Source of the DNA: a virus
Reading direction: 5' to 3' (one strand)
IMG/VR virus record: IMGVR_UViG_3300030406_002318
Location: 1 to 23,569 of that record
DNA: 23,569 nucleotides
The notes below the pieces were generated by a model. The model worked only from the letters and a program-made list of their open reading frames with translations. It did not search any database and was not told the DNA's origin. This document shows, in pieces, positions 933-23,569 of the stretch (its first letter is position 1; each line of letters starts with the position of its first letter). A program made the position numbers and the translations under genes.

Positions 933-3338
933 ATGGCAGAGTCTGTACATACAAATTTTCCTTCTCAAGTTGTAAGCGACTTAGAAAAGTCAACCATGGA
1001 ATACGGGTTGAAAGTGGCTAACGCTATAGAGAACGAATGGTTTAAAGGTTCTCACTCTAATAGATACCTGCACAATGAAAATAGATTTCATAATTTAAGG
1101 TTATATGCTAGAGGTGAACAATCAATACAAAAATACAAAGATGAGTTATCTATAAACGGTGACTTAAGCTACTTAAATCTAGACTGGACACCAGTTCCAA
1201 TTATACCTAAGTTTGTTGATATAGTTGTTAATGGTATGGCACAGAGAACATTTGATGTTAAGTGTTTTTCTCAAGATCAATACGGTGTTAGTAAGCGAAC
1301 TGAATACATGGAAACCATAATGGACGACATGAGAGCTAAAGAGTTTAACGAGGCTGCTAAAAACACTATGAATATGGATCTTTACAAAACAGATCCTACA
1401 AAACTACCTGAAACAAAAGAAGAGTTAGAACTACACATGTCTTTAACTTACAAACAAGAGGTTGAATTAGCAAACGAGCAAGCTATAAATCTTTTACTTG
1501 AAGGTAGTAAGTTTGATTTAATACAACAAAGATTATTAAGAGATTTAACAGTTTTAGGTATTGGCGCTGTAAAAACAAACTTTAATTATTCTGAAGGAGC
1601 TACTGTAGAATATGTTGACCCAGCTAACCTTGTTTATTCTCACACCGACTCTCCTTATTTTGATGACTGTTATTATGTTGGTGAAATTAAGTGTATACCT
1701 ATAAATGAACTTGTAAGACAGTTTCCTGAGTTAACTCAAGAAGAGCTAGAGAGAATAAATAAAACAGCTAAAAGAACAAACTCAAGATATACCAACTACG
1801 GTCAAAACGATAAAAACAAAGTACAGGTTTTATACTTTAACTATAAAACATACACTAACGACACTTACAAAGTCAAGACAACTGGATACGGTGGTAAAAA
1901 AGCTATTGAAAAAGAAGATACATTTAAACCTAGCGGAAAAGGTGATTACGAAAGAGTTTCTAGAGCTTACGAGGTTTTATACGAAGGAGCTAAAATATTA
2001 GGAACAGACAGAATTATAAAGTGGTGTAAGTGTGAAAACATGATGAGAACTAAGAGTGATTTTAACAAAGTTAAAATGAATTACTCTATAGTTGCGCCTA
2101 GAATGTATAATGGTAAAATAGAAAGCTTAGTAAGTAGAATTACTGGTTTTGCTGATATGATACAGCTTACTCATTTAAAGCTACAACAAGTGTTATCAAG
2201 AATGGTTCCTGATGGTGTTTATTTTGACGCTGATGGTTTAGCTGAAATAGATTTAGGTAACGGTACAAACTATAACCCGCAAGAAGCGTTAAACATGTTC
2301 TTCCAAACTGGTTCTATATTAGGTAGATCTTTTACTGGTGAAGGAGATGCTAACCCTGGTAAAATACCTATACAAGAAATATCAAATGGTCAAGGCGCTG
2401 GAGGTAAAATGCAAGCTCTTATAAGTAATTATAATTATTACTTACAAATGATTAGAGATGTAACTGGTTTAAATGAAGCTACAGATGCTTCTATGCCAGA
2501 TGAAAGAACTTTAGTTGGTGTACAAAAATTAGCAGCGGCAAATAGTAATACAGCAACAAGACATATATTAAACGCAAGTCTTTTTGTTACAGCTGAAACT
2601 TGCGAGGCTTTGTCTCTTAGAATATCTGATATACTCGAGTATTCACCTACTAGAGATGCGTTTATACAAGCTATAGGTGCTCACAACGTTGCAACATTAA
2701 AAGAACTTCAAGAGTTATATTTATATGACTTTGGTATATTTATAGAGTTAAAACCTGATGCTGAGGAAAAAGCTACTTTGGAAAACAATATACAAATGGC
2801 TATACAGCAAAAAATGATTGATTTAGATGATGCTATTGATTTAAGAGAAGTAAAAAGTATTAAAATGGCTAATCAATTGTTAAAGCTAAAAAGAAAAAAG
2901 AAAGCTGAGCGTGATCAAAAAATGCAACAAGAAAACGCAAAAGCACAAGCAGAAGCTCAATCTCAAGCACAGCAAGCCGCTTCTCAAGCTGAAGTTCAAA
3001 AGCAACAACAGTTAACCTCAACTCAAATGGAGATGGAGAAAACTAAGAACGCTTTAAAAATAGAATACATGAAGCAAGAGGCTATGTTAAAAAGAGAACT
3101 TATGGATCATGAGTTTGAAATAAACATGAAGCTTAGAAAGATGGATGCTGAAAACCAAAGACAAAAAGCTAACGATGCTGAAAATCGTAAAGACCAAAGA
3201 ACTAAGATACAGGCTTCACAACAAAGCCAACTTATAGACCAAAGAAAAAATGAAACTGAGCCTAAAAACTTTGAATCTGCCGGAAACGATAATATGGGAT
3301 CTGGTGGAATAGGTATCGGTGGATTAACTAGTAACTAA
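933..3338 (+). CDS. Portal protein
   Basis: The protein has 801 residues. It forms the dodecameric ring at one capsid vertex through which DNA enters and leaves, and where terminase and then the connector proteins dock. Support comes from its position straight after terminase, its length, and portal-like stretches: VEYVDPANLVYSH (from about residue 225) and the helical stem/clip region around residues 510-545 (DASMPDERTLVGVQ), which resembles portals of marine podoviruses and crAss-like phages. From about residue 650 to 775 the sequence is a long Gln/Ala/Lys/Glu-rich coiled coil, expected to form the barrel or crown projecting into the capsid. The end is glycine-rich (GSGGIGIGG). Residues 780-786 (FESAGND) recur almost exactly near the N-terminus of the next protein. 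There is no Shine-Dalgarno; the start is TAATATG-like, one base after the terL stop. Isoleucine is mostly ATA (14 of the first 19 by hand count). Confidence 0.83.
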   Translation: MAESVHTNFPSQVVSDLEKSTMEYGLKVANAIENEWFKGSHSNRYLHNENRFHNLRLYARGEQSIQKYKDELSINGDLSYLNLDWTPVPIIPKFVDIVVNGMAQRTFDVKCFSQDQYGVSKRTEYMETIMDDMRAKEFNEAAKNTMNMDLYKTDPTKLPETKEELELHMSLTYKQEVELANEQAINLLLEGSKFDLIQQRLLRDLTVLGIGAVKTNFNYSEGATVEYVDPANLVYSHTDSPYFDDCYYVGEIKCIPINELVRQFPELTQEELERINKTAKRTNSRYTNYGQNDKNKVQVLYFNYKTYTNDTYKVKTTGYGGKKAIEKEDTFKPSGKGDYERVSRAYEVLYEGAKILGTDRIIKWCKCENMMRTKSDFNKVKMNYSIVAPRMYNGKIESLVSRITGFADMIQLTHLKLQQVLSRMVPDGVYFDADGLAEIDLGNGTNYNPQEALNMFFQTGSILGRSFTGEGDANPGKIPIQEISNGQGAGGKMQALISNYNYYLQMIRDVTGLNEATDASMPDERTLVGVQKLAAANSNTATRHILNASLFVTAETCEALSLRISDILEYSPTRDAFIQAIGAHNVATLKELQELYLYDFGIFIELKPDAEEKATLENNIQMAIQQKMIDLDDAIDLREVKSIKMANQLLKLKRKKKAERDQKMQQENAKAQAEAQSQAQQAASQAEVQKQQQLTSTQMEMEKTKNALKIEYMKQEAMLKRELMDHEFEINMKLRKMDAENQRQKANDAENRKDQRTKIQASQQSQLIDQRKNETEPKNFESAGNDNMGSGGIGIGGLTSN

Positions 3339-3355
3339 TTATTATATTTTATATT

Positions 3356-4564
3356 ATGGAAGAGAACAAAGAAAACGTAGTTGAAGAAACTACACAAGAA
3401 CAAAAGACTGAGGAAACACCTCAAGTCGATGAAAGTAAATTTGAATCTGCTGGAGATGATACTGTTATAAAAGTAGATTTAAGTAAACCACCAAAATCAA
3501 AACAAGATGCCGTTCCAGAGCAAAGCACAAATGAGGTTCCTGTACGCGACGGATCCGAAGCTAGCGAAGAAGTTCAAAAGCAAGACGTCGAAGAAACAAA
3601 TGAAGAACCTACCGGAGAAGAAGTCTCCGTTCAAGATGAAGCCGAAACCGTACTAGAAGAAGTAACTGAAGAAGAAGTACAAGAACTACAAGAACAAGTT
3701 GAAGAAGCTGTAGCAGAAGCTGAAGCAACAGGTAAAGACTTGCCTGAAGAGATACAAAAACTTGTAGACTTTATGGAAGATACCGGTGGAGATTTAAACG
3801 ATTACGTAAAGCTAAACACAGATTACACCGATAAAAAGGATGCTGATGTTTTACAAGAATATTATAGACAAACTAAACCTCATCTAGATAACGAAGAGAT
3901 AGACTTTTTGTTAGAAGATCAGTTTTCATACGACGCTGACGTTGATGAGGATAGAGATATAAAAAGAAAGAAATTGGCTTTGAAGGAGCAAGTTGCTCAA
4001 GCAAGGCAACACTTAGAAGATAGAAAATCTAAGTATTATGAAGAGATTAAAGCTGGAAGTAAACTGACAACAGAACAACAGAAAGCTATAGACTTTTTCA
4101 ACCGCTATGAGAAAGAGTCCAAAGAGTCTCAACGAATAGCACAACAACAAACTGATACTTTTTTAAATAAAACTAATCAAGTTTTTAATGACAAGTTCAA
4201 AGGTTTTGAATACAACGTCGGAGACAAAAAGTTTAGGTTTAACGTTAAAAACGTGAATGAAGTTAAAAACACTCAAAGCGACATTAATAATTTTGTCAAA
4301 AAGTTTTTGAACAAACATAATCAAATGGAAAACGCTACGGGTTATCATAAATCTTTATTTACAGCAATGAATCCTGATGTTATTGCAAATCATTTTTATG
4401 AGCAAGGTAAAGCCGATGCTATTAAAGAAGCCGCTGCCAAAGCTAAAAACGTGAATATAAATCCACGTAAAGCAGCTGGTGAAATTAATATGGGTGGAGT
4501 TAAGTTCAGAGTGTTAGGTGATAATTCAGATTCGTTGAAATTTAAAATTAAAAACAAAAATTAA
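3356..4564 (+). CDS. Probable capsid scaffolding protein
   Basis: The protein has 402 residues and lies between portal and major capsid protein, the classical scaffold slot. Residues 1 to about 130 are very acidic and look disordered (runs of E, Q, V, T; TEEEVQELQEQVEEAVAEAE suggests coiled coil). A better-ordered middle follows from about residue 140 (LNDYVKLNTDY, EIDFLLEDQFSYD), then helices rich in K/E/Q (KKLALKEQVAQARQHLEDRK). The C-terminus is basic (SLKFKIKNKN), like scaffolds whose basic tail contacts the capsid protein. The middle and C-terminal parts resemble a family found in uncultured marine phages in this same position. I see no protease catalytic motif, so a fused maturation protease is not supported. 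Residues 29-35 (FESAGDD) repeat the portal C-terminal motif. It starts 17 bases after the portal stop in an AT-only leader without Shine-Dalgarno. An alternative is a minor inner-capsid protein. Confidence 0.65.
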   Translation: MEENKENVVEETTQEQKTEETPQVDESKFESAGDDTVIKVDLSKPPKSKQDAVPEQSTNEVPVRDGSEASEEVQKQDVEETNEEPTGEEVSVQDEAETVLEEVTEEEVQELQEQVEEAVAEAEATGKDLPEEIQKLVDFMEDTGGDLNDYVKLNTDYTDKKDADVLQEYYRQTKPHLDNEEIDFLLEDQFSYDADVDEDRDIKRKKLALKEQVAQARQHLEDRKSKYYEEIKAGSKLTTEQQKAIDFFNRYEKESKESQRIAQQQTDTFLNKTNQVFNDKFKGFEYNVGDKKFRFNVKNVNEVKNTQSDINNFVKKFLNKHNQMENATGYHKSLFTAMNPDVIANHFYEQGKADAIKEAAAKAKNVNINPRKAAGEINMGGVKFRVLGDNSDSLKFKIKNKN

Positions 4565-4586
4565 CTAACCTTAAAATTTTTACATT

Positions 4587-6050
4587 ATGATTACAGGCGT
4601 TCCGGCTGCTGGTTATACACCAGCGCCAATTAAACACGCGTTGACTCAAAACTACATTGATTTTGCTACTTTAGGTGCAAGCGATGGTTGGGCTCAACAA
4701 TATTTACCAGACCTAATGGAAAAAGAAGCTGAAGTGTTCGGTAACAGAACTATTGCAGGTTTTCTTTCTCAAGTAGGCGCTGAAGAATCTATGACTTCTG
4801 ACCAAGTTGTTTGGTCTGAGCAAGGTAGATTACACCTATCTTATACTGCTACGAGAGCTAATGATGTTATTACTATCGCTAACGATGTTGATGGTAATCC
4901 TATCGGTGTTAATCACGGTATTCGTCCAGGTGATATGTTATTAATATCTGATGCTAACGCTACTGTTAGGGCTTACTGTATCAACGTTGACCCTACTGCT
5001 GCTGCTTACGCTCAGATCACTGTTAAACCTTACGCTACTATGGCTGGTGGTGCTGCTGCAAACATGAATGCTACTGCTATTGGTAACAACGACCTTACTG
5101 TACTAGTATTCGGTTCTGAATATGTTAAAGGTGCAACTGGTAGAGGTTTATCTAACGAGCCACAGTTCAAATCTAGAAAAAACAAGCCTATCATTATCAA
5201 AGATCAGTACCACGTTTCTGGTTCTGATGCTTCTGCTATTGGTTGGGTTGAAGTTTCTGGTGAAGATGGTCAATCAGGTTACTTATGGTACTTGAAAGCT
5301 GCTGGTGACACTAGACAGAGATTTACTGACTACTTAGAGATGACAATGTTAGAAGCTCAAGATGCTGCTCAGGTTATTACTGCTAATCCTTCTGTTTCTG
5401 GTGTTGCTCAAGCTGGTGCTGCTGGTACAATTACTGGTAGTGAAGGTTTATTCTCTGCGTTAACTACAAGAGGTAATCAAACTTCTGGTATTACAGGTGT
5501 TCCTTTAGCTGATTTAGCTGAGTTTGACTTAATGTTAGCTGAGCTTGATAAAAACGGTGCTATTGAGGAAAACATGTTGTTTGTTGATAGAACTACTGCT
5601 TTAGCTATTGATGATATGTTAGCTGCTATGAACTCTTACGGAGCTGGTGGTACATCTTACGGTGTATTTAACAACTCTGAGGATATGGCACTTAACTTAG
5701 GATTCTCTGGCTTCCGAAGAGGTTCTTACGACTTCTATAAGTCTGACTTCAAATACCTTAATGATAAAGGTACAAGAGGTGGTCTTAATGATGCTGTTAA
5801 CAACATCAGAGGGGTAATGATTCCTGCGGGTGTATCATCTGTGTATGATGAGCAATTAGGTAAAAACCTTAAGCGTCCATTCTTACACGTAAGATATAGA
5901 GCTTCTCAAACAGATAACAGACGATTCAAAACTTGGACTACTGGTTCAGTTGGAGCGACTACTTCTGATTTAGACGCGATGGAGATGCACTTCCTATCTG
6001 AAAGATGTTTAGTTGTACAAGGAGCTAACAACTTCTTCTTGTTAAACTAA
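4587..6050 (+). CDS. Major capsid protein (HK97-like fold)
   Basis: The protein has 487 residues. It is the shell subunit, predicted to adopt the HK97 fold. The N-terminal region carries the family signature of crAss-like and related marine podovirus capsid proteins: QNYIDF near residue 21, then WAQQYLPDLMEKEAEVFGNR and TSDQVVWSEQGRLHLSY. A small beta/Ala-Thr-rich insertion lies around residues 105-165. Its place after portal and scaffold agrees. Codon use differs from neighbours: Ile is ATT or ATC in 22 of 23 cases by hand count, while flanking genes favour ATA, and Ala is mostly GCT. This looks like translational selection for a very abundant protein. The leader (4565-4586) is A/T-rich without Shine-Dalgarno. 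Ten bases after the stop a strong intrinsic terminator begins, so MCP probably ends a major transcript. No decoration domain or crosslinking residue can be assigned by eye. Confidence 0.88.
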   Translation: MITGVPAAGYTPAPIKHALTQNYIDFATLGASDGWAQQYLPDLMEKEAEVFGNRTIAGFLSQVGAEESMTSDQVVWSEQGRLHLSYTATRANDVITIANDVDGNPIGVNHGIRPGDMLLISDANATVRAYCINVDPTAAAYAQITVKPYATMAGGAAANMNATAIGNNDLTVLVFGSEYVKGATGRGLSNEPQFKSRKNKPIIIKDQYHVSGSDASAIGWVEVSGEDGQSGYLWYLKAAGDTRQRFTDYLEMTMLEAQDAAQVITANPSVSGVAQAGAAGTITGSEGLFSALTTRGNQTSGITGVPLADLAEFDLMLAELDKNGAIEENMLFVDRTTALAIDDMLAAMNSYGAGGTSYGVFNNSEDMALNLGFSGFRRGSYDFYKSDFKYLNDKGTRGGLNDAVNNIRGVMIPAGVSSVYDEQLGKNLKRPFLHVRYRASQTDNRRFKTWTTGSVGATTSDLDAMEMHFLSERCLVVQGANNFFLLN

Positions 6051-6059
6051 CAGGTTTTT

Positions 6060-6092
6060 AAAAGAGTCGGGGCTTCGGCCTCGACCCTTTTT
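6060..6092 (+). terminator. Rho-independent terminator with UUCG tetraloop, downstream of major capsid gene
   Basis: An 8-bp stem is formed by GTCGGGGC (6066-6073) and GCCTCGAC (6078-6085), with one G-U pair, closed by loop TTCG (6074-6077) in a C(UUCG)G context, an exceptionally stable tetraloop. After one A/C mismatch the stem can extend by G6064-C6087 and A6060-A6063 against T6088-T6091. The descending arm runs straight into CCCTTTTTATTT, a U tract. It lies in a 70-base gap and is one of only two GC-rich patches in an AT-rich sequence. The remaining bases to the next ATG (6093-6120) are almost pure A/T; I cannot point to a convincing promoter there. Confidence 0.88.
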
Positions 6093-6120
6093 ATTTATTA
6101 ATTTTTTATTATATTATATC

Positions 6121-6957
6121 ATGGCAAAAAAAGCAAAAAAAGAAGAGGTAGAGGTACCTGTTGTTGAAACACCAGTTGTTGAAACACCAACACCAAAAGT
6201 AGTGGTTAAAGAAAAACCACAAAAAAAGAAAGATGATTGGGTTATTAAAGATCGTGTATACGAATTAATAGGTGCTCAACCATTAATGAGAGCTGTAAAA
6301 TCACATAGCATATATTATTTTGACGAAGAAAAAGGTTACGAAAGAGAATTAAAATATACGTCAAACCAAAGAAGTTGCTTTGTTGATGAGTTTCCAAAAG
6401 ACGCAAGACACGTATTAGAACATATTGTTTTTAGAAACGGTGTACTAGCCGTACCTAAAGAAAAAACTGTTTTGCAAAAACTATTATCATTATATCACCC
6501 TCACAGAAATAGACTGTGGGTTGAAGTAGATAACGAAGCAAAAGCTGAAGAAGAAACATTAGATATAGATTTACAACTTGATGCTATGAATTTAGCTAGA
6601 GAAATAGATATTGATGCAGCTGAAGCTATTATGAGATCAGAGAAAGGTTCTGAGGTATCTACGATGAGTTCTAAGGAACTTAAACGTGATTTATTACTAT
6701 TTGCTAGAAATAAGCCTAGACTGTTTCTAGAGTTAGCTTCTGATGATAATGTTTATCTTAGAAATTTAGGTATAAAAGCTGTTGAGGCTAATATCATAAG
6801 AATGACTCCGGATCAAAGATCATTTGTTTGGTGTAGCAACGATAGAAAACTTATGAATGTACCTTACGATGAACACCCATACTCAGCTTTAGCCGCTTGG
6901 TTTAAAACTGACGAAGGTATGGAGGTTTTCAACAATATTGAAAAAAGATTAAACTAA
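6121..6957 (+). CDS. Conserved head-module protein of unknown function (marine phage family)
   Basis: The protein has 278 residues. Residues 1-40 are a charged, low-complexity leader (Lys runs, two VVETP repeats, a second Lys cluster), probably disordered. The folded part begins near residue 40 (DWVIKDRVYEL). Recognisable stretches are YYFDEEKGYERELKY, an acidic linker (residues about 140-160), helical segments NLAREIDIDAAEAIMRSE and SSKELKRDLLLFARNKPRLF, and the C-terminal PYSALAAWFKTDEGMEVF. I recognise these from a family that sits directly after the capsid gene in uncultured marine phages, but I know of no established function. A capsid-vertex, minor head or internal role is possible from position only. 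The gene is isolated by hairpins on both sides (terminator 6060-6092, hairpin 6965-7001), so its expression may be set separately from the flanking genes. The start is followed by two runs of seven A. There is no Shine-Dalgarno. Confidence 0.7.
   Translation: MAKKAKKEEVEVPVVETPVVETPTPKVVVKEKPQKKKDDWVIKDRVYELIGAQPLMRAVKSHSIYYFDEEKGYERELKYTSNQRSCFVDEFPKDARHVLEHIVFRNGVLAVPKEKTVLQKLLSLYHPHRNRLWVEVDNEAKAEEETLDIDLQLDAMNLAREIDIDAAEAIMRSEKGSEVSTMSSKELKRDLLLFARNKPRLFLELASDDNVYLRNLGIKAVEANIIRMTPDQRSFVWCSNDRKLMNVPYDEHPYSALAAWFKTDEGMEVFNNIEKRLN
6160..6189 (+). repeat. 15-base tandem repeat (x2) encoding VVETP-VVETP
   Basis: The unit GTTGTTGAAACACCA occurs twice back to back (6160-6174 and 6175-6189), followed by a partial ACACCA (6190-6195). 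It is in frame and encodes two VVETP units plus TP in the disordered leader of the head-module protein. The copies are identical in nucleotide sequence, so the duplication looks recent. Copy number could vary between related genomes without breaking the frame. Confidence 0.85.
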
Positions 6958-6964
6958 TCTAACT

Positions 6965-7001
6965 GTAGTGGTAGTCGCCCTACGGGGCGATTACAAACTA
7001 C
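6965..7001 (+). promoter_or_regulatory. Long RNA hairpin with UACG tetraloop, no U tract; upstream of gene 7017-7721
   Basis: The arms are GTAGT (6965-6969) with ACTAC (6997-7001), a 1x2 internal loop, GTAG (6971-6974) with TTAC (6991-6994), and TCGCCC (6975-6980) with GGGCGA (6985-6990). The loop is TACG (6981-6984) in a C(UACG)G context, another UNCG tetraloop. That is about 15 pairs. Downstream is A-rich (AAATAAAAAATAATT), so it lacks the U tract of a standard terminator. It ends 15 bases before the next ATG, leaving an unstructured A-rich ribosome landing site. Possible roles are an RNA processing site, a stabilising 5' stem, or a weak or factor-assisted terminator. Confidence 0.75.
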
Positions 7002-7016
7002 AAATAAAAAATAATT

Positions 7017-7721
7017 ATGGCAATAAGCGTAGATACAGTATATCAAAGAGTGTTGGCGTTAGCTAACAAAGAACAAAGAGGATATATAACACCTCAAGAG
7101 TTTAACTTACTAGCAAATCAAGCTGAACTCGAAATATTTGAAATGTATTTTTACGACTTGAATATTAGAGAAAGAGTAGATGTTGAAAGAGACCAACACA
7201 CTACACTATCTGATATTACTACACTAATAGGTAGAAAGTTAGATCCATTTGTTACAATAGCAACGGTCACTTCTGGCCACACGTTTCCTGCTGCATACAT
7301 GATAGGTAAAATATTCCACAACAACCGTTTATGCAAGCAAGTTCCTAGAAACGAAATATTCAACTTATTACAATCACCCAGACATGCAACCATGCTTAGT
7401 AGGTCACCAGTATATTGTGAAAGCGATACAACTGGTCAAGATATAGAAGTGTATGGTGGTGCTACACAAGCCGCTGGTAACACAGTTACTTGTGAGGTTA
7501 TAACTGCACCTACAGGAAATGTAGCTTGGGGATATGTGGTTGTAAACGAAAAAGCTTTATACAACGCGAACTCAGCTGTGAATTTTAACTTACATGATTC
7601 TGAAGAAACAAACTTAGTAAACAAAATAGCAGAGTTAGCTGGTATAGTAATAAACAAAGCTGGTCTAGCTAGTACGTTTGCTGGTAGAGATGCTAATGAA
7701 ACACAAATCAAAAAACAATAA
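7017..7721 (+). CDS. Head-tail connector / ring-type structural protein
   Basis: The protein has 234 residues. The N-terminus (AISVDTVYQRVLALANKEQR, then GYITPQEFNLLANQAELEIF) is a hallmark of a small structural family found between the capsid gene and the nozzle gene in uncultured marine podoviruses and, in diverged form, crAss-like phages. The N-terminal 60 residues are helical; the rest is mixed alpha/beta with a Thr/Val/Ala-rich stretch (about residues 150-185) that looks like beta structure. By analogy with crAss-like virions it may form one of the rings stacked under the portal, but which ring cannot be told from sequence alone. It lies 15 bases after the hairpin 6965-7001 and stops 3 bases before the next gene (TAA-ACT-ATG), so it is surely co-transcribed with that gene. 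There is no Shine-Dalgarno. The exact role is inferred; membership in the virion module is well supported. Confidence 0.68.
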   Translation: MAISVDTVYQRVLALANKEQRGYITPQEFNLLANQAELEIFEMYFYDLNIRERVDVERDQHTTLSDITTLIGRKLDPFVTIATVTSGHTFPAAYMIGKIFHNNRLCKQVPRNEIFNLLQSPRHATMLSRSPVYCESDTTGQDIEVYGGATQAAGNTVTCEVITAPTGNVAWGYVVVNEKALYNANSAVNFNLHDSEETNLVNKIAELAGIVINKAGLASTFAGRDANETQIKKQ

Positions 7722-7724
7722 ACT

Positions 7725-8624
7725 ATGGGTTTAAACTTTCCAAATAATAACGACAGTTCGTATTATGTAGCTAATGGTAATCATGGTGAATATCAATATA
7801 TAAGTTTAGAGGATATTGTTGAAACATTCATGGCTACTTATGTTGGTGAAAACAAAGTGTGTAAAAATGTTCTTGCTGCAGATGTTTACTTTCATGCTAC
7901 GAGAGCTTTTCAAGAATTAAGCTATGACACACTTAGAAGAGTTTTATCACAAGAATTAGTAATACCTAACTCTTTACACATGTTACTACCTAGAGACTTT
8001 GTAAACTATATAAAGTTTAGTTGGTCTGATTCTAGTGGTATAGAACATGTCATATATCCAGCTAGTAAAACTTCAAATCCAACAGACATAGGTTATGACG
8101 CATCTACAGATACATATAGTTTTACAGCTAATGTTTTAGATAGCGACGAAACATCTGATACAATGACTAATTTTAAATCAGCTACACCAGTTGAGAACCA
8201 AGATAGCTACGATGATGAAGATTATGATTATTTAGTAGGGCAAAGATATGGGCTTGATCCTCAATACTCTCAAATAAATGGATCGTTTTTTATTGACTAT
8301 AAAACAGGAAAAGTTCATTTTAGCTCTAACTTAGCGGGAAAAACTGTGATAATAAAATACATAAGTGATGGTTTAATAGAGTCAGAAAGTGATGCTGATA
8401 TAAAAAAGGGAGACTCTGTTATACATAAGTTTGCTGAAGAAGCTTGTTATAAACATATATTATATGGATGTTTATCTGCTTTAGCAAACCCTCCAGCACA
8501 ATTAGCAATGATTAAAAAAGAAAAATTTGCAGAAACAAGAAATGCAAAAATAAGATTATCCAATATAAAAGTTGAAGAGATTACTCAAATATTAAGAGGT
8601 AAATCTAAATGGATTAAACACTAG
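7725..8624 (+). CDS. Head-tail adaptor / tail-tubular-like connector protein
   Basis: The protein has 299 residues. The N-terminal half contains EYQYISLEDIVETFMATYVG and ADVYFHATRAFQELSYDTL, then PRDFVNYIKFSWSDSSG. This set is typical of a family that precedes the nozzle gene in marine podoviruses and matches the helical head-to-tail adaptor pattern (T7 gp11 / P22 gp4 type role). A beta-rich insert with many Asp/Ser lies in the middle (about residues 120-200). A helical C-terminus (FAEEACYKHILYGCLSAL; ends GKSKWIKH) follows. The likely job is to bind the portal and present a platform for the nozzle. It is the only gene here that ends in TAG (8622-8624); the TAG is in frame with the next gene, whose ATG comes six bases later, with no other stop between. 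Function is inferred from family and place. Confidence 0.7.
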   Translation: MGLNFPNNNDSSYYVANGNHGEYQYISLEDIVETFMATYVGENKVCKNVLAADVYFHATRAFQELSYDTLRRVLSQELVIPNSLHMLLPRDFVNYIKFSWSDSSGIEHVIYPASKTSNPTDIGYDASTDTYSFTANVLDSDETSDTMTNFKSATPVENQDSYDDEDYDYLVGQRYGLDPQYSQINGSFFIDYKTGKVHFSSNLAGKTVIIKYISDGLIESESDADIKKGDSVIHKFAEEACYKHILYGCLSALANPPAQLAMIKKEKFAETRNAKIRLSNIKVEEITQILRGKSKWIKH

Positions 8625-11600: not shown

Positions 11601-14600
11601 CACACCAACTATAAAGATCAGTATGACAGAGGTAATCAGTGGTTTTATGATGATGAAGATTATCAAGACGATAGTTATTACCCTACTCCTGGTTTTTGCA
11701 AGGGAGGTTGTTTTGATCACGCGGGTAACGCTCACTTTGATATATCTTTTGCAAACTTTCATCAAGATTCTAATCCTGTTGGTTATGCAGGAAATATATT
11801 CCAAGTTCCGTATACTAGATTAACAAACATAGGAGGTTTAATTAGATTTGCTGAAGATCCAGCCCAAACTATATGGGAAATAGTACAAGTAAGAGGTAGA
11901 TTATATACAAACCTTGGTGCTGGTATGAATTACTTTGGAGGTGAAAGTGGTAGTGCTAGTAGTCCACTTGTTGGTGGTACTGGCGATAGTGACTGGAACT
12001 GGAGTAATAGTGATTCTAACTCTGGTAATCAAAGATTTGGTATTAGGGTTAAATTAAGAGGTTACAGAGATCTTGATAACGTAGATGTTACTGGGCTAGG
12101 TACACATGATGAGTGGTTTAGTCCTAACAGAGTAGACGCTAATGGTGACTCACACTATTTTTGTCCTATTGCTAGTGGTTTAGTTGGTGGTAACTCTTAT
12201 TGGATGCAACCAGATGGTACGTTAGCAGTTAGAACCGCACAATCCGCTACATGTTCTCATAGTAGTGGTATATTCAATGGAATGACACATCCTACTATAG
12301 ATGGTTTTTCAGCAAACCCAAGAAACGATAGTACTATAGAGTTTATGGAGCCTTTTATAGTTACGGATAGTGAAGGTGCTCAAGAATTTTCAAGTAACAA
12401 TCCAGCTATATGGGAAACAGAACCTAAAGAAAATGTTGAACTAGATATTTATTACGAGGCTTCCGCTGCAATACCCGTTAAGTTTTCAAAAGAAACAAAC
12501 GAAATGATAGTGCCATACAAAGCTACTTTTGAGCATGGAGGCACAACACACACCGTAACAAGTTTATCTGATAACAACATAACTTTTACACCAGCTTTAA
12601 CAGCTGTTATACCTGAGTTTGATCCAGCTTTACCAAGTATAACTGGAAATGAAAGCTCTATAACTATATATAGATACGATGGTTCTAAAATAACTTCTAA
12701 AGTAAATGTAAGTGGTAACGTTCCTGTTGGTGCTACTACAATACAGTTATTTATGGGTGATAACCCTCGTAAACATGATTTTTCAATTGTTACTAAAAAT
12801 GCAACACATCACCAAACATATTACTTAGGCTGGTGGAACTGTTGGGCTTGGGGTAACGGTGTTGAGTCAGATAGAATTAGAGATGATTTTAATGCACCAC
12901 AACTAGATAACGGTGTGAAAGCTTCAGCTTCTGTAGCAGAGCCTTATAAAGAAGAACATAGAAAAAATGGTTTTATATGGTCTGGTATATTCAACTCTAT
13001 AAGTGGCGTTAACAACTTAAATCAATTTATAGCAGCAGAACCTATAACCAAAGATTTAAATCCTGGTTATGGTAGCATTCAAAAAATGCATGCTAGAAAC
13101 ACTGATACAGTAGCCTTTTGTGAAGATAAAGTTTTAATCATATTAACAAACAAAGACGCATTATTTAACGCTGATGGTAACTCTAACGTTACTGCGACTG
13201 CTAGAGTTTTAGGAGCTGCAACACCTATACAAGGTGAGTATGGTATATCCACTGATCCAATGAGTTTTGCTAAAACACCTTTTGGTGCTTACTGGTGTGA
13301 TCAAATGAGAGGGCAGGTTTTAGGTTTACAAGGACAATCAAGCATAAGCGTTATATCTGATGTTGGAATGAAAGATTACTTTAATGACAATCTTCAAGGT
13401 GTTACAGATATACTTGGTACTTACGATGGTAAGAAAAATGAATATAACTTAACGTTTGGAACAAGAGCTTACAGAAGTCAGATGAGGCCAAGTGGAACTA
13501 CTGTTTCTTGGAACGAAGATATTAAAGGCTGGGTAAGTTTTAAATCTTTTGATCCTGAAAACGGTATTAGCTTAAACAACGAGTATTACACGTTTAAGTT
13601 TGGTCAAATATGGAAGCATCACCAAACAATTAACCATTTGGGTAATCCAAATCCTAATAATATGTTTTATGGTATACAGTATTATCCTAGTATTAAATTG
13701 TTGTTTAATGACGATCCTGGTTCTGTTAAAAGCTTTGGAACCGTTAACTACGAGGGTACTCAGTCTAGAATAACCGCTTTTGTAAATCCTTCAGTAACAG
13801 ATGCTGCTGGTAATACATTTAATATAGGTGATAGAGAGTATTATAATCTAACACAAAAACAAGGTTGGTATATAGATAGTAGTACCACAAACCTACAGTC
13901 AACTGAAAACATAGAGTTTAAAGAAAAAGAAGGTAAATGGTTTAGTACTTTTACAGGCGCTACTACTTTACTTTCAAATTTAGACGAAAAAGAATTTAGT
14001 GTTCAAGGTATTGGTATGGCTACTCAAGAAACAGTTGTAGATTCTGGAACTAATAGAAGTCAACGAAAATTTACGTTTAACGTTACAAACAACACAGCTA
14101 CTGGTGGTGGTACTTACGATGCTACAGCTGATAGTGGTTGGACTACTGAAAATGTTTCTAATCAATCAAGCCACACAGATGGAACAACCGTTGGTACTAA
14201 CAACACAAGTTTTAAAGAGCTTACAATAACAAATATTGTAAATGATGAGTACACTGGTATAAATTTAGACGCCTTTGATTTTACTATTGGAGGAGATGTT
14301 ACAATAACAGATACAACCTTTAGAACAATAGAAAAACAAGGTGGAGGAAGCTGGAACGCTACAGCTGGTGTAAACAAGATAGAGTTGTTTAACAATGGTG
14401 TTGCTGGTGAACCAACTAATACTATTAAAGTTAAGGTTTACTATGATAACTTTACAATAACACAAGATACTGTTTACACTGTAGATTTAGACAAGCAGAC
14501 AGTTAGTTTAAACACACTACTAAAAACACCGTTTGAAGCTTTAGTTCAGCATGATGGCACGGTAGGTAATTTTAATTTAACTATAGCTAATGTTAATGAT

Positions 14601-17013: not shown

Positions 17014-17700
17014 ATGAGTTTTTTACTAGTAGGTGCTGCCGCTATTGGTGTTGGTGCTGGTGTAGCTAAAGCTATATCTGGTGGTAAGCAAAAGAAAGCA
17101 GCTAAAAAAGAAGCTGAAGCCGCTAAAGCAAGATTAGAACAACAAAAAGAAGCGTTTAAAAACTTAGACACTTCAAACCCTTATAAGGACATGCAGAATA
17201 CTATGGAAGACTTAACTGTTAATCAACAGCAGGCTGAGTTTGAAAGAGCACAGCAACAACAAAGTCAAGCTAACATACTTAATAGTATGAGAGAAACTGC
17301 TGGTAGTTCTGGTATAGCAGCATTAGCACAAACCTTAGCTAACCAAGGCGCTATGGATGCTCAAAAAGCATCAATATCAATAGGTCAACAAGAAGCTGCA
17401 AATCAACAAGCTGAAAGAAGTATGGCCTCTCAAATACAAAATCAAAAAGTTCAAGGTGATATTATGTCGCGTGACATGGAAAGAAACAAAGTATCTACAC
17501 TTATGGGTATGGAAGCTGGAGATGTTGCTGCTGCTAATCAAAAAGTAGCTATGGCAGATGAAAAAATGTGGTCAGGTATATCAGGCGCAGCTAGTTCTGT
17601 AACAGGCGCTTTAACTGGTGGAATGGGTGGAGCCGGTGGTGGTGTTGGTGGTGGACATCAAATGGACTTCCAAAATCCTTTCTGGAAACAACAACAATAA
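17014..17700 (+). CDS. Small internal virion / ejection protein (T7 gp14-like type)
   Basis: The protein has 228 residues. The N-terminus is a glycine/alanine-rich hydrophobic stretch (LLVGAAAIGVGAGVAKAIS, residues 4-22), a possible membrane-inserting segment. It is followed by a helical Lys/Ala/Glu/Gln region (residues 26-120), the conserved-looking block NPYKDMQNTMEDLTVNQQQA and ETAGSSGIAALAQTLANQGA, and a Gly-rich tail near residues 195-220 (TGGMGGAGGGVGGG). The composition and the order hydrophobic tip, Gln-rich helices, Gly tail are those of small ejection proteins such as T7 gp14, and I recognise these blocks from marine phage virion modules. It would be stored in the head and delivered into the cell envelope during DNA entry. 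It is spaced 3 bases from both neighbours' coding ends (TAA-GAT-ATG and TAA-ACT-ATG), indicating one operon with the cupin and the next gene. Confidence 0.65.
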   Translation: MSFLLVGAAAIGVGAGVAKAISGGKQKKAAKKEAEAAKARLEQQKEAFKNLDTSNPYKDMQNTMEDLTVNQQQAEFERAQQQQSQANILNSMRETAGSSGIAALAQTLANQGAMDAQKASISIGQQEAANQQAERSMASQIQNQKVQGDIMSRDMERNKVSTLMGMEAGDVAAANQKVAMADEKMWSGISGAASSVTGALTGGMGGAGGGVGGGHQMDFQNPFWKQQQ

Positions 17701-17703
17701 ACT

Positions 17704-19002
17704 ATGAAAGATAAATTTGAAAAACACATGATGTACAAGGGTGATAAAGCTGTTATGGCTAAAACATACCAAGAACATCTTGATTTAAAGAAAAAAGGTT
17801 ATAATCATACTAAGCCAAAAAAATCCCCTTTAAAACAGATGGATTCTGGATTAGTTCAAGCATATACTAACGCTAAAATGTCAGAAGCTGCTAACTACGC
17901 TAGTAGTAGAGGTTTTGATACTTTAATGAATATTAGTAATGACTTAGTTAGTGGGTTGCACGCTAGAGCCGCTCAAAAAAAGCAAATAGAAAAAGCAGCT
18001 GAAGAAAAAACAGATGGTATAGTTCAAGAGTGTTTAGCTACTGGTGGTGCTTTGGGTGAAAACACGTTTAATAGTTGTTATCCACATACAGAAGATCTTC
18101 AAAAACAATATATAGAGGCTGTTAAAAATAATGATAAAAAAGCTCAAGCAACAATAATGCAACAGCTAAATGAGTTTAGTGTCGGTGTTGGTGGTTTAAA
18201 AGAACTTAATCAAGACGTTGCTTTAGCTCTAGATCAAAAAGATTTAAGTGCAAATATAAGTCCTAGTAGTCCAGAATATTTAAAACTACAAGCTTTTTTA
18301 AACAAAGAAACAACACAAAGATATGACCCTGAAACAAAGTCGTTTATATACACATCTCAAATACCTACTGGTGAAAATGATGAAAATGGAGAGCCTATAA
18401 TGGAAGAGGTTGAGTTTAGTAACTCAGATATTCAAAACATACTAAAAGAAAATACAACTGATAGTAAGTCTATAGCTGATATTAGAGATTTAATAATACA
18501 AGCTGGTGACGAAGCTATTACGCAAAATAGATCTGGTTACCTTGAAGATGATTATGATGCTGTTAGGACTACTTCTAAAATGAATACTATAATAAAGAAA
18601 GGTAATTTAAATTCTTTGTTATATGATGACGTGTTAGAAGACGGAGGTTCTTTTGCTCAAAACATAGCAGATAATCCAGAAATAGAGAACATGACATACG
18701 AGTCTTTAGGTATAACAATGAATAATGGCGTTTTAGAAATAGACACGGATGGTGATGGAAAAGTAGATTCTTCTTTTCAAGATGATGGAGATGGTAAGAT
18801 TAGTGCAGAAGAAAAACAAACGCTTTTGAGCTCTGGCTTTAAAGATCAAATAATAGATGCTTTAATAAATCCTAAAAATGATAACTTTGATGAAGAAAGA
18901 ACTAGAGGTATTATGGCTACGTATTTTAGTGCAGCCGTAGGAAAACAATATAGAAACAAGAAAGATAAAAAGAGAACAACTGGTCAATACGACGATTTAT
19001 AA
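17704..19002 (+). CDS. Putative internal virion protein with paired Ca-loop-like motifs
   Basis: The protein has 432 residues. The N-terminus (KHMMYKGDKAVMAKTYQEHL, then KKGYNHTKPKKSPLKQM) is a short basic motif that I recognise from ejection-type proteins of marine phages. A helical, Ala/Gln-rich middle follows, and charged segments fill residues 100-330. Two 12-residue loops sit back to back: DTDGDGKVDSSF (347-358; D347, D349, D351, D355) and QDDGDGKISAEE (359-370; D361, D363, E370). They look like EF-hand or type-3 Ca loops; the first lacks the Glu at position 12 and the second lacks Asp at position 1. The tail is basic (KQYRNKKDKKRTTGQ). There is no signal peptide or membrane helix. Placement between a gp14-like protein and the giant multidomain protein suggests a packaged, ejected component. 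No enzyme motif is visible and the function is unknown. Confidence 0.58.
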   Translation: MKDKFEKHMMYKGDKAVMAKTYQEHLDLKKKGYNHTKPKKSPLKQMDSGLVQAYTNAKMSEAANYASSRGFDTLMNISNDLVSGLHARAAQKKQIEKAAEEKTDGIVQECLATGGALGENTFNSCYPHTEDLQKQYIEAVKNNDKKAQATIMQQLNEFSVGVGGLKELNQDVALALDQKDLSANISPSSPEYLKLQAFLNKETTQRYDPETKSFIYTSQIPTGENDENGEPIMEEVEFSNSDIQNILKENTTDSKSIADIRDLIIQAGDEAITQNRSGYLEDDYDAVRTTSKMNTIIKKGNLNSLLYDDVLEDGGSFAQNIADNPEIENMTYESLGITMNNGVLEIDTDGDGKVDSSFQDDGDGKISAEEKQTLLSSGFKDQIIDALINPKNDNFDEERTRGIMATYFSAAVGKQYRNKKDKKRTTGQYDDL

Positions 19003-19011
19003 TAAAATAAT

Positions 19012-22000
19012 ATGTCACAAAAACTATATGCTGCGTTAACTAGTGCCGGATCTTATACAAAATCGTACAAAGACTTTGAGTCACAGTTTTCTACGCGTGA
19101 AAAACAAAATGCCCTTTACGAAACTTTAGTTGCTAGTGGTACTTACACTAAATCGGAAGATGAATTTGTAAAACAGTTCTTTCCACCTAAAGTTGTTAAG
19201 CCTGCTCCTAACAAAGTAAGCTCTCAATCTAATCCTGAGGTAACCTCTTCAGGACAACCCCAAGTAGACTTATCACAAATCACAGACCCTAAACAAAGAG
19301 CTTATCATGAAAGAATGATGAAGAACCCAAATGCGGTTTACAATCCAAATACGGGAGGTTACACTTTTATAAAAAAAGGTCAGAAAAAAGAAGACGTAGT
19401 ACACCAAACCCAACAAGAAGTAAACGCTAATATTGAACAAAGCAAAAAGGTAAAACAAGAGCAAGAAGATCAAAACATGCTAAAGAGTGCACACATTACT
19501 TTTGATCAGATGAGTAAAGGTGAAGGGTTGTTTGATGACAAAGAAAAGATATACAAACAAAACTTAGAAAAGTTTTACGAAAAAGAAGGTATAACAGTAA
19601 ACATTATTGATGAGTGGGGAAGTGATGACCAAATAGAGTTAGTTGATGCTAATGGTAGAAAACTTCAAATAAGATCTAGTCTACTAAAGAAACGTCCTGA
19701 CATGATAATGAACCGTATTAGTAATTGGGTTCAAACAAGTAGAAAAGACATAGTTGAAAGTAGAGGTAAAAAAGTTGAAAAGATTAACCCTGAAGATCTT
19801 GTTATACCTGGCTTTGAAAATCAAATTGATAAAGACATAAAAAATCTTGAAGAAATTATTGAAAATTCAACTGGGCCAACTAAAGAAAAGCTGAAAGCTG
19901 AGCAAGAGTTGAGTGTTTTAAAAGAACAGAAACTCGACAATGAGTTTGATCAAAATTATAGAAAGCAAGACGAGCTGTTAGAAAAGTATAACTCAGAAGT
20001 TAGTGAGGTTGCTAAAAACTATGAGAGTTATTTAAAACAAAACCAACCAGATTTAACTGAAGAACAAATAGCTGAGCAAGTTGACAAAAGAGTTAACAGC
20101 TATATAAACGGAAACTTTTCGCTTCCTGAAAGAAGAATTATAGAAGAAAACGTAGGTGGCATTAAATATGGTTCAAGAACAACAAGAGGAACAAAAGAAA
20201 TAAGAGACGCGGCTATAGCAAATCTTAAAAAATCTATAGCAGATGGTTATGGTAGTGGTCAATTTAAAGATGCAGATGTTGACTTAGAAAAATATATAGG
20301 CGATGACGAGTGGAAATTGCTAGATGGTTTAAGCATGGAAGAAATAGAAGCTTTAGCTGGTTTAACTGTACGTGGTGACAAAGCGGTTGAAGTTGACGGT
20401 AGTATTTGGAACGATGAAAAGAAACAAGCTCACATTAATAAAATAAAAACAAAGCTTTTTAATCAAGAAAACAGAGATGCTGTTAAACAGTCAAGATTAT
20501 TAGAGCAAGAGTTTGAAGGTTTAGAAGTAACATCTACAAACTTAGAAAAAGAAGCTCAATCACTACAGAGTAGAACAGAGGTTTTTAACGCAAGAATGAA
20601 CCCTGTTATAGAACAACTAGAAACACAGCAAGCACAAAAAACAAATTTAGAGGCTGAGTTACAAAGCTTGTACAATGAAATAGATCAATCTGCTCAACCA
20701 ACAACACAAGAAGAAGTTAACGAGTATAATAATAAGATTAAAAAATACGAAGGCTTATTAAGTAAGTATAACGGTTTAACAGAAAACATTCAAAATACAT
20801 ACTCTACTTATGAAGAGTTAATGAAAGAAGGTGATGCTTTAAAGCAAGAGTCTGAGAACTTTAACAGTAGATTAGAACAGCATAAAGGTCAAGTAAAAGA
20901 CTTTACTAAAAGATCTGATATAGTACAAACACAAGTTGATGCAACGAAGGCTAAATACGGTATAGAAATTGTTGATGGTTTCATGAAGTTTAAAAACGAT
21001 TATGTAAACATAGACAGGTACGAAGAGTGGAGAAAAAGACACAAGATAGAATACTCTATATTTGATAAAGACGCTTGGGCGTTGTTTGGTCAAGGTCTTG
21101 GTCAAACAGCTTTAAAATGGGCTACAGGTACACCGTTGTTAGCTAACCAAGCCTTAAGTGCTGCGTTTGGTGATTTTGCAGATGATCCAAATCAGTATGA
21201 TAGATTAGACTTCTTAGAAGACATGTATGAGAAGTATACTAATTATGATTTAGTTGGTGTTGCTAGAGATGAGGATTACAACCCTGGCGACATGAGTGTA
21301 TTAGATAAAGGTACTAGAGCTATTGCTCAAGGACTTCCTTTTATGTTAGCTATTGCTGCTAGTGGTGGAAAAGAAATAATAAAAAACCCAGGAGCAATGT
21401 TTAGTGGTCCTTTAGGTAAAAAGCTTATAGAAAACTTACCTTTAGCTGTAACTGGTTTTAACTTAACAGCTCAAGATAATGTTATAGAAGGTAAAAGAAT
21501 GGGCTTAAGTGATAATCAAGCTTTAGCTTATGGTACTATTGTTGGTAGTACTATAGGTATGTCACAGATGATAATGCCTGACTCTAATTTTTTAACTGGA
21601 GCTGGAAGTGCAAGTGCTAAAAATGCTTTGAAAGAGGCTTTGAAAAATATAACCACAAAAGCTGGTATGAAGTATGTTGCTAAAAACTGGGCTGGTAATG
21701 TACTTAAAGAAGTTCTTGAAGAAGAAGTTGAATTTGCTTTAGAGTCGTTAACACAAGGTGCTTTTGGTTTAGAGCATGCTAAAGGTTTTACTGATTGGAA
21801 AAACCACTCTAGATTAATACATGACACTATATGGTTATCAGGTGGTATGGGTGCTGTCGGTGCTAAAAGAGATTACAAAAACTTTAGAAACGCAGCAATG
21901 CTTAAACTTAAAGGTAACACTGAACCTGTACTAAAACAATTAAATACTTCAATACGTGAAATTGAAAAGCGTATAGAAAAAGCTGGTCAAGAAAACGATA

Positions 22001-23569
22001 CTGATGCCATGCAAGAGTATGACAAGCAATTAAAACAATTACTCAATGCTAAAAACTACATAAACAATTTTAAAGCAGCACTTAACGTAGCACCAGAACT
22101 AGTTACTGAAGATGAGTTAGAGTTGCTAGTTGAAAAAATGAGATTAGAGCAGTTAAAAGCTAATCAAGATCCTAGTTTTCATAAAGCAATTGATAAACAG
22201 TTAGATGATATTAATGCTAAGATAGAAGACTCTGCTGTGCAAAGAAACCAAAAAGAGATTTACAAAAGAACAGTTGAAAACGTGAAAAATATGATTAACG
22301 GAACAACTGATTCACAAGGTAAGACTAGAACTGTTAAAGAGTTTGAAGACGATCAAGACGGTAGTGCTATAGAAAAAATAGACAAATGGCTAGAAGAAAA
22401 TGGATATAGCCAAGAACAAAGGTCTGAAGCTGCTCAAGGTGTTTACGGTACATACTTAACAGATAAAAATGGTAACAAAGTTTTAGTTTTAAACAAGTCT
22501 TTTTCTCAAGAAGGTGGTGCTGGAGTTAATGTAGCTGCACATGAGTTTTTACATGACATGATGCAAACAACCTTTGCTGCTACAGATGCTGATGGTAACA
22601 TACTTAGAGATAGAGATGGTAATATACAAATAGATAAAAAGAAAGCGATAGCTATTGGAGGTAGTTTATTTGAATGGGTTAAACAGCAAAAAGGCGAAGA
22701 TTTTATTGATAGTGAAATGTATAATAGACTAGCTACCTACGGAGATAAACCTAGTAGCCAACAATTTCAAGAAGTTATGACGCTATTGTCAGATGCTGTT
22801 GTTAGTGGTGATATGACCTTCAGTGAGGGACCAATGACAAAGCTTGGTGATATATTTAGAAGACAACTTCAGAAAATAGGTATGCCTGTTAAATTTAATA
22901 CAGGTAAAGATGTTTTTAATTTTGTAAAAGACTATAACAAATCTATAAAAGAAGGTAACTTAACACAAGCACAACGAGATGTATTAGACAAAGGAGCTAA
23001 AATAGGTGGTAAAATGCAAAAGCTAATAGACAGCGACGGTGTTAGAGAAATAGCTCTTGAAGAAAGCATAGAAGAAAGAAGAAACTTATTAGCTCAAAAT
23101 GGAGTAGATCCAGACTCGCCCGCTGGTAAAGCACTTTTAGCTTCAAAGCCTAGTAACTTAAGTGGTCTATTAGACGAGTTTGATGGTAACAAAAGAAACA
23201 TGATTAACAAAACCGTCGGTGAAACAAAAGATGGTAAAAGTGTTTTTGATTTAAAAAACCCTGATGGTAGTTACGTTGATAATCCGTTTGTAAGATCTAG
23301 GTTTGGTCAAGAGGTTGCGCCTATAGTTGAAACAATAACAAAGAGATTATTTGATCCTATACCACAAAATTTAAGAAAAGGAATTACAAGAGGTCGTTTC
23401 ATGAACGAGTTGACTTCAATAGCAGCTGGACTAGTTGAAAGAGAATACGATGCTACTAAGCAAGATCTTGATAAGTTTGTTAGTAATAGATTAAATCTTA
23501 GAGCAAACAGACTAGCTAGTGATTTAGGTATTGAGTCAACCGTTGATGAAGGTGGTTTAGGTGGAGCGG
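19012..23569 (+). CDS. Giant multidomain (polyvalent-type) virion protein with HExxH metallopeptidase motif; 3' end outside window
   Basis: The frame stays open from ATG 19012 to the right edge, so at least 1519 residues are encoded. Residues 5-26 and 35-56 are two copies of a small LYxxL...YTKS..F..QF repeat. A long charged helical region follows (about 150-480), then a coiled coil (about 484-640; NLEKEAQSLQSR). A part with hydrophobic or small-residue segments spans about 690-950 (GLPFMLAIAASGG at 774; LAYGTIVGSTIGMSQMIM at 838-855), then a second coiled coil (about 972-1025). At 1177-1181 lies HEFLH within NVAAHEFLHDMMQTTF, the zincin HExxH signature. Two DxDGNI hairpins follow (1192-1208), and E1254 in FQEVMTLLSDAV is a candidate third zinc ligand. 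This architecture is that of phage polyvalent proteins carried in the virion and ejected with DNA, and it follows two other ejection-type genes. Whether the peptidase is active and what it cuts are unknown. More domains probably lie past the window. Confidence 0.72.
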   Translation, partial: MSQKLYAALTSAGSYTKSYKDFESQFSTREKQNALYETLVASGTYTKSEDEFVKQFFPPKVVKPAPNKVSSQSNPEVTSSGQPQVDLSQITDPKQRAYHERMMKNPNAVYNPNTGGYTFIKKGQKKEDVVHQTQQEVNANIEQSKKVKQEQEDQNMLKSAHITFDQMSKGEGLFDDKEKIYKQNLEKFYEKEGITVNIIDEWGSDDQIELVDANGRKLQIRSSLLKKRPDMIMNRISNWVQTSRKDIVESRGKKVEKINPEDLVIPGFENQIDKDIKNLEEIIENSTGPTKEKLKAEQELSVLKEQKLDNEFDQNYRKQDELLEKYNSEVSEVAKNYESYLKQNQPDLTEEQIAEQVDKRVNSYINGNFSLPERRIIEENVGGIKYGSRTTRGTKEIRDAAIANLKKSIADGYGSGQFKDADVDLEKYIGDDEWKLLDGLSMEEIEALAGLTVRGDKAVEVDGSIWNDEKKQAHINKIKTKLFNQENRDAVKQSRLLEQEFEGLEVTSTNLEKEAQSLQSRTEVFNARMNPVIEQLETQQAQKTNLEAELQSLYNEIDQSAQPTTQEEVNEYNNKIKKYEGLLSKYNGLTENIQNTYSTYEELMKEGDALKQESENFNSRLEQHKGQVKDFTKRSDIVQTQVDATKAKYGIEIVDGFMKFKNDYVNIDRYEEWRKRHKIEYSIFDKDAWALFGQGLGQTALKWATGTPLLANQALSAAFGDFADDPNQYDRLDFLEDMYEKYTNYDLVGVARDEDYNPGDMSVLDKGTRAIAQGLPFMLAIAASGGKEIIKNPGAMFSGPLGKKLIENLPLAVTGFNLTAQDNVIEGKRMGLSDNQALAYGTIVGSTIGMSQMIMPDSNFLTGAGSASAKNALKEALKNITTKAGMKYVAKNWAGNVLKEVLEEEVEFALESLTQGAFGLEHAKGFTDWKNHSRLIHDTIWLSGGMGAVGAKRDYKNFRNAAMLKLKGNTEPVLKQLNTSIREIEKRIEKAGQENDTDAMQEYDKQLKQLLNAKNYINNFKAALNVAPELVTEDELELLVEKMRLEQLKANQDPSFHKAIDKQLDDINAKIEDSAVQRNQKEIYKRTVENVKNMINGTTDSQGKTRTVKEFEDDQDGSAIEKIDKWLEENGYSQEQRSEAAQGVYGTYLTDKNGNKVLVLNKSFSQEGGAGVNVAAHEFLHDMMQTTFAATDADGNILRDRDGNIQIDKKKAIAIGGSLFEWVKQQKGEDFIDSEMYNRLATYGDKPSSQQFQEVMTLLSDAVVSGDMTFSEGPMTKLGDIFRRQLQKIGMPVKFNTGKDVFNFVKDYNKSIKEGNLTQAQRDVLDKGAKIGGKMQKLIDSDGVREIALEESIEERRNLLAQNGVDPDSPAGKALLASKPSNLSGLLDEFDGNKRNMINKTVGETKDGKSVFDLKNPDGSYVDNPFVRSRFGQEVAPIVETITKRLFDPIPQNLRKGITRGRFMNELTSIAAGLVEREYDATKQDLDKFVSNRLNLRANRLASDLGIESTVDEGGLGGA
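19024..19179 (+). repeat. Tandem 30-residue protein repeat at N-terminus of the giant protein
   Basis: Residues 5-26 (LYAALTSAGSYTKSYKDFES, then QF) and 35-56 (LYETLVASGTYTKSEDEFVK, then QF) align with a 30-residue period. Conserved positions are L5/35, Y6/36, L9/39, G13/43, Y15-S18/Y45-S48, F22/52 and Q25-F26/Q55-F56. The nucleotide copies have diverged, so this is an old, selected duplication, probably a small helical docking module. Confidence 0.75.

Follow-up and report, generated by a model that had tools for sequence, protein, structure and literature searches.

The window analysed here, a stretch of 23,569 nucleotides, derives from a marine podovirus of flavobacteria. Genes for the portal, scaffold-like, major capsid and connector proteins (933..8624, + strand) fix its synteny with podoviruses of Cellulophaga, Flavobacterium and Maribacter. 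From the portal onward, eight genes are collinear with gp91-gp97 and gp99 of phage phi38:1, matching in order the portal, the scaffold-like protein, the capsid, three connector-type genes, a large tail protein and a small hydrophobic protein. The 2,500-residue tail protein (8631-16133) carries at residues 1675-1774 a stretch resembling the C-terminal domain of the crassvirus muzzle (PF25729, E 2e-5, below the cut-off). The small hydrophobic protein (17014..17700, + strand) is a homologue of phi38:1 gp99 (blastp E 1e-4, hhalign 83%), and its phi40:1 counterpart is detected by MS/MS; the virion proteomics paper behind the phi40:1 data is reportedly that of Holmfeldt et al. 2013. A 432-residue protein follows (17704..19002, + strand), assigned to the phi40:1 gp100 position by its location alone, as there is no sequence match to gp100; EF-hand-like DxDxDG repeats lie close to its end. 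One relative (L096) belongs to a contig that was binned into a Flavobacteriaceae MAG; it is the sole match among 84,980 genomes scanned and suggests Flavobacteriaceae as the host group.

Directly downstream, the open reading frame of a giant protein (19012..23569, + strand) contributes its N-terminal 1,519 codons and runs off the window, remaining open up to an N gap in the 28.8-kb IMG/VR record. The intact giant of 3,135 amino acids is found in contig IMGVR_UViG_3300030116_003951 (the contig behind L002/L013), with residues identical up to that gap. In tblastn searches, neither half of the giant matched any of 50,697 phage records. The giant sits at the position of phi40:1 gp101, the last gene of the collinear virion module, which is annotated as structural on the basis of "experimental MS/MS proteomics" (GenBank note). 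By this synteny the giant is likely carried in the virion, as originally predicted. The support is indirect for the member bearing the domain described below, because the phi38:1 counterpart of the MS-detected gp101 lacks HExxH. Furthermore, gp101 differs from the giant in its length of 1,691 amino acids and in the absence of detectable sequence similarity, and the phi38:1 protein contains only one F-S-K.

The feature of interest is a zincin-like metallopeptidase domain, modelled over residues 1064-1338 of the giant (22201..23025, + strand) by AlphaFold2 with a pLDDT of 91.3 and a pTM of 0.89. The original prediction had placed a HEFLH motif at H1177-H1181 (22540..22554, + strand; H1177 at 22540-22542, E1178 at 22543-22545, H1181 at 22552-22554), directly preceded by NVAA, with a third ligand, E1254 (22771..22773, + strand), within FQEVMTLLSDAV and 73 residues after H1181; all of these positions are exact. 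In the model, a small sheet is followed by the HEFLH helix (model residues 111-122), a long helix, and a helix at 185-202 that carries E191, corresponding to E1254. This placement is consistent with E1254 as the predicted third zinc ligand of a gluzincin-type site. A conserved C-terminal cap, FNTGKDVFNFVKDY (22894..22935, + strand), occupies near-invariant alignment columns and corresponds to model helix 235-251. Two DxDGNI units, DADGNI and DRDGNI (residues 1192-1205; 22585..22626, + strand), separate the active-site helix from the helix that follows it. They had been described as hairpin-like, and they do form short paired beta bridges in the model, but they belong to a lineage-specific insert outside the conserved active site, which the window phage shares with its closest relatives and which is absent or shorter in most others. 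Among relatives, the spacing from H to E ranges from 53 to 103 residues, with the DxDGNI units falling in this variable insert, and a catalytic or calcium-binding role for them as conserved features was rejected, as few relatives carry the insert.

The highest rows of a VIA-align fold search are zincins. The zincin-like first domain of anthrax lethal factor aligns over 173 residues (Z 5.5, rmsd 5.1) and its catalytic domain over 175 residues (Z 5.2, rmsd 5.7), followed at Z of about 3 by MATCAP, collagenase, PPEP-1, the polyvalent protein ArdC and ACE. The likeness to solved zincins is remote (VIA Z below 8, with a Foldseek E of 0.27), yet the rows above the rest are zincins. A PDB sequence search at E 10 gave no match, so that the likeness to the M34 (anthrax lethal factor-like) family is one of fold alone and membership is not claimed. 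No Pfam, PHROG or PDB-sequence model matches this domain of the window protein above the cut-off; the 25 Pfam families matched most often at E 10 include no curated polyvalent MPTase model, and the Pfam M78, SprT-like and DUF3267 zincin models match some family members weakly. Fold matches in BFVD include large polyvalent proteins.

Zincin-like MPTase domains have been described in polyvalent proteins of phages and plasmids, for which autoprocessing was proposed in general terms (Iyer et al., 2017, PMC5512222). Like the present family, these are zincins in giant multidomain phage proteins encoded beside virion genes, with a common core of three strands, an N-terminal helix, a HExxH helix and a helix bearing Glu (PMC5512222). 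In contrast to them, the domain in the window protein matches no curated Pfam or PHROG model above the cut-off. It very probably belongs with the polyvalent-protein metallopeptidases (PMC5512222), as a family unnamed in the libraries searched. A syntenic giant, gp18 of the Flavobacterium Elemovirus (3,694 amino acids, annotated as structural), contains a HEIFH domain that aligns to the window zincin family, third Glu included, over 145 columns (probability 96, E 3e-9), while the remainder of that protein is not detectably similar.

A profile scan of IMG/VR returned 247 relatives of the domain, 80 of which were kept; the open reading frames that bear it are mostly 2,000-3,400 amino acids long where complete. 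Counted more widely, the relatives number at least 589. H1177, E1178, H1181 and E1254 are invariant in all 61 rows of the homologue alignment (A3) and in 44 sequences less than 70% identical, so the histidines and glutamate on which the original prediction had staked its case are indeed conserved. Only 6 of the 61 rows fit a search pattern containing HExxH, the other 55 having been recruited through [TS]G[KR][DG]V[YF]NF about 120 residues downstream, and the invariance is thus not an artefact of recruitment. Taken with the confident model and the zincin fold matches, this conservation makes it highly likely that this part of the giant is a zincin metallopeptidase domain of the gluzincin type, as had been predicted, and one that presumably binds zinc.

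A wider set shows variation at the site. Among 71 giants fetched through a conserved C-terminal module, about 59 have HExxH in a zincin-like context, eight have the domain with EExxH or QExxH, one lacks the zincin domain and three are fragments. In a sister clade, HEFLH is replaced by a conserved [LI]EELFHL, while the zincin context and the third Glu are kept (L107, residues 1018-1030; also L109, L110, L126, L130, L140 and L141); this may be an altered metal site or mark a pseudoprotease. A second short HExxH segment, AHEKxHxxDMKSGKLNYD, is conserved in the last 65 or so residues of some giants (L028, L035, L043, L052, L058, L169, L176, L179 and L180) and absent in the window phage. An initial view of the C-terminal module as homologous to the Cellulophaga giants was dropped, hhalign having given no support.

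The sister clade bears on whether the domain is catalytic at all. A zincin fold without catalytic activity, acting as a structural part or in DNA ejection, would account for a clade that swapped the first His for Glu and kept the domain. It also has a precedent in the giant virion RNA polymerase of phage N4, an ejected virion protein of about 3,500 residues with a HExxH domain (C1) in its C-terminal part (PMC12633501), which is packaged unprocessed (PMC5512222). Unlike that protein, the giants of the zincin family contain no RNA polymerase recognised in family scans. Without metal chemistry, there would be little reason for H, E, H and E to stay invariant over 61 divergent sequences, and a purely structural role is very improbable.

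The original prediction also held that neighbouring domains past the window might be informative, and a HAD domain and a recurrent short motif were found there. A HAD phosphatase domain with the motifs DFDDTL, LTAR and FADD occurs in 41 of 98 non-redundant giants. In the window phage, it lies beyond the window, with its motif at 25650 of the record, and spans residues 2197-2400 of the intact giant (AlphaFold2 pLDDT 83). An assignment as polynucleotide kinase (phrog_415, E 2e-4) was dropped, since the Foldseek matches are HAD-type, of generic HAD and deoxyribonucleotidase-like kinds, and the domain is called a HAD phosphatase only. Several unrelated domains can thus share one polypeptide, namely the zincin and the HAD domain, joined in relatives by Zeta/AAA kinase or PD-(D/E)xK-like motifs. 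In one relative (L152), a Walker A motif, VGGPGAGKT, stands at residue 801, directly after the zincin, and one scanned giant of the zincin family also matched the Zeta_toxin and AAA_33 models.

The motif, referred to here as the FSK tag, has the consensus [IVL]-[KQM]-F-S-K and turns up repeatedly downstream of the zincin, ahead of the C-terminal module, at sites that are not homologous to one another. It was first spotted by eye, as [hydrophobic]-x-F-S-K at domain edges, and tested afterwards. A first set of 31 giants has 40 tags in the stretch from the zincin to the C-terminal module, where shuffled sequences have 4.7, and background levels elsewhere. The set fetched through the C-terminal module, largely separate (about nine contigs overlap the first set), gives 89 tags against 14.4 (maximum 27); in its other regions, the N-terminal part and the zincin are at background, and the C-terminal part, with 17 against 9.0 (maximum 20), lies within the shuffle range. 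These shuffles preserve composition only, and tag sites shared by descent are not independent. With the HAD domain and its flanks masked, 100 tags remain against 20.6. Because a single protein may carry up to five tags (at least two in 45 of 90 giants) and flank identity between sites is 0.10, the tags are not copies of one homologous segment. This distinguishes them from other motifs enriched in the same region. WY[KR] proved to be one conserved homologous segment (none or one per protein, flank identity 0.60), and the KG[KR] examples listed belong to conserved stretches close to the C-terminal module, with a flank identity of 0.18.

The placement of the tags follows the edges of the HAD domain. 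Of 70 tags, 38 bracket it, against 7.3 by random placement, and only one falls inside it, against 8.2 expected, while a control motif shows neither bracketing (8 against 7.1) nor avoidance of the interior. Measured from the DxDDT motif of the HAD domain, they concentrate at about 25-50 residues on the N-terminal side and 150-175 on the C-terminal side. In the window phage, the tags lie past the window in the same record: a variant, DAMFSQAAL, at 24249, and LYFSKASDS (25536) and LTMFSKASD (26139), which flank the HAD motif. In the model of this HAD domain, the trailing tag falls in segment 194-201, which has a pLDDT below 50 and is probably an exposed linker. Such positions at domain edges would also fit a non-proteolytic linear motif, such as a docking peptide or a packaging or ejection signal, or junctions left by domain shuffling. 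The serine of the tag is encoded by TCN at some sites and AGY at others, even within one gene, which suggests selection on the protein level and argues against recent junction repeats at the DNA level. In addition, such explanations give no reason why the tags should be confined to the part of the giant that follows a protease, and we assign them little probability.

The proposal that the original prediction had listed as a release of other domains of the same protein gains from the interdomain position of [IVL][KQM]FSK; the two further roles it had named, in disarming a host defence and in cutting an envelope barrier, gained nothing from the analysis. The zincin would cut its own giant polypeptide, in cis or between copies, at the tags. 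Such cuts may part the HAD phosphatase, the other domains downstream of the zincin and the C-terminal module from one another, either as the head matures or once the protein has been ejected into the host. Proteolysis of such proteins has parallels: the ejected protein DarA of phage P1 is cut by the prohead protease Pro (PMC12810830), and head proteins of SPN3US are likewise processed by a prohead protease. These phages use a separate prohead protease, whereas contigs of 14 relatives (38-69 kb, possibly incomplete), searched for PF04586 (Peptidase_S78) and PF00574 (CLP_protease, ClpP-type), contain neither family.

Several observations count against self-processing. The EExxH sister clade keeps the tag in four of five members, which leaves three explanations: activity of the EExxH form, cutting by a different protease, or a different function of the tag. 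By the tag pattern, 22 of 84 HExxH giants have no site. Furthermore, syntenic HExxH giants outside the zincin family (Elemo and Manatee) lack tag enrichment, as the Elemovirus gp18 comparison illustrates. Separately, no clear enrichment was seen in three other polyvalent proteins checked, from phages including Pseudoalteromonas phage Y3 and HTVC027P. The one full-length giant that has lost or never had a zincin domain (L117) is free of the tag, though this is a single case. Persistence of the tag in the EExxH clade, together with the P1 precedent, would suit a scheme in which a host protease, or an unrecognised phage one, cuts the tags and the zincin does something else. Such a scheme has a low probability, given the result for the two prohead protease families in those possibly incomplete contigs, and a host protease would leave the phage-specific variants of the tag unexplained.

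These variants are seen in the residue before F, which agrees between two tags of one protein in 43 of 75 pairs against 23.1 expected (p 0.0002), with a composition control of 0.07 against 0.57. In a partial Mantel test, tag site correlates with zincin distance given C-terminal distance (0.20, p 0.0055). The covariation of tag and zincin is a weak effect, and nearest-neighbour agreement does not favour the zincin over the C-terminal module (36 against 40 of 66). An active zincin protease that mainly targets host proteins after ejection, with the FSK tags as unrelated linkers, would agree with the invariant active site and with a role among those proposed for polyvalent zincins (PMC5512222). 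It leaves the self-similar interdomain motif and its covariation with the zincin unexplained, and the present data suggest no host target; we consider it unlikely.

The fold, the invariant HExxH...E site, the virion-protein synteny and the interdomain tag downstream of the zincin were computed here, and on this basis the chances are about even that the domain is a protease freeing the domains of a virion polyprotein at the tags. Autoprocessing in general was already proposed in 2017 (PMC5512222), and the new element is the candidate site code. A search of that study's text turned up no cleavage motif, and in the literature searched we found no cleavage sites for polyvalent-protein zincins. More tentatively, and somewhat short of an even chance, marine podoviruses of Bacteroidota, a large uncultured group, may package a true polyprotein whose resident zincin reads a phage-specific [IVL]-[KQM]-F-S-K between cargo domains and frees effectors (the HAD phosphatase and kinase- or nuclease-like domains), with sites and protease coevolving as in the polyproteins of RNA viruses. 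As the candidate recognition motif comes with positions that predict exact fragments, self-processing is directly testable. If true, the tag would provide a rule for telling where injected effector domains start and stop, applicable to hundreds of giants from uncultured phages, and the zincin would possibly be a new site-specific protease.
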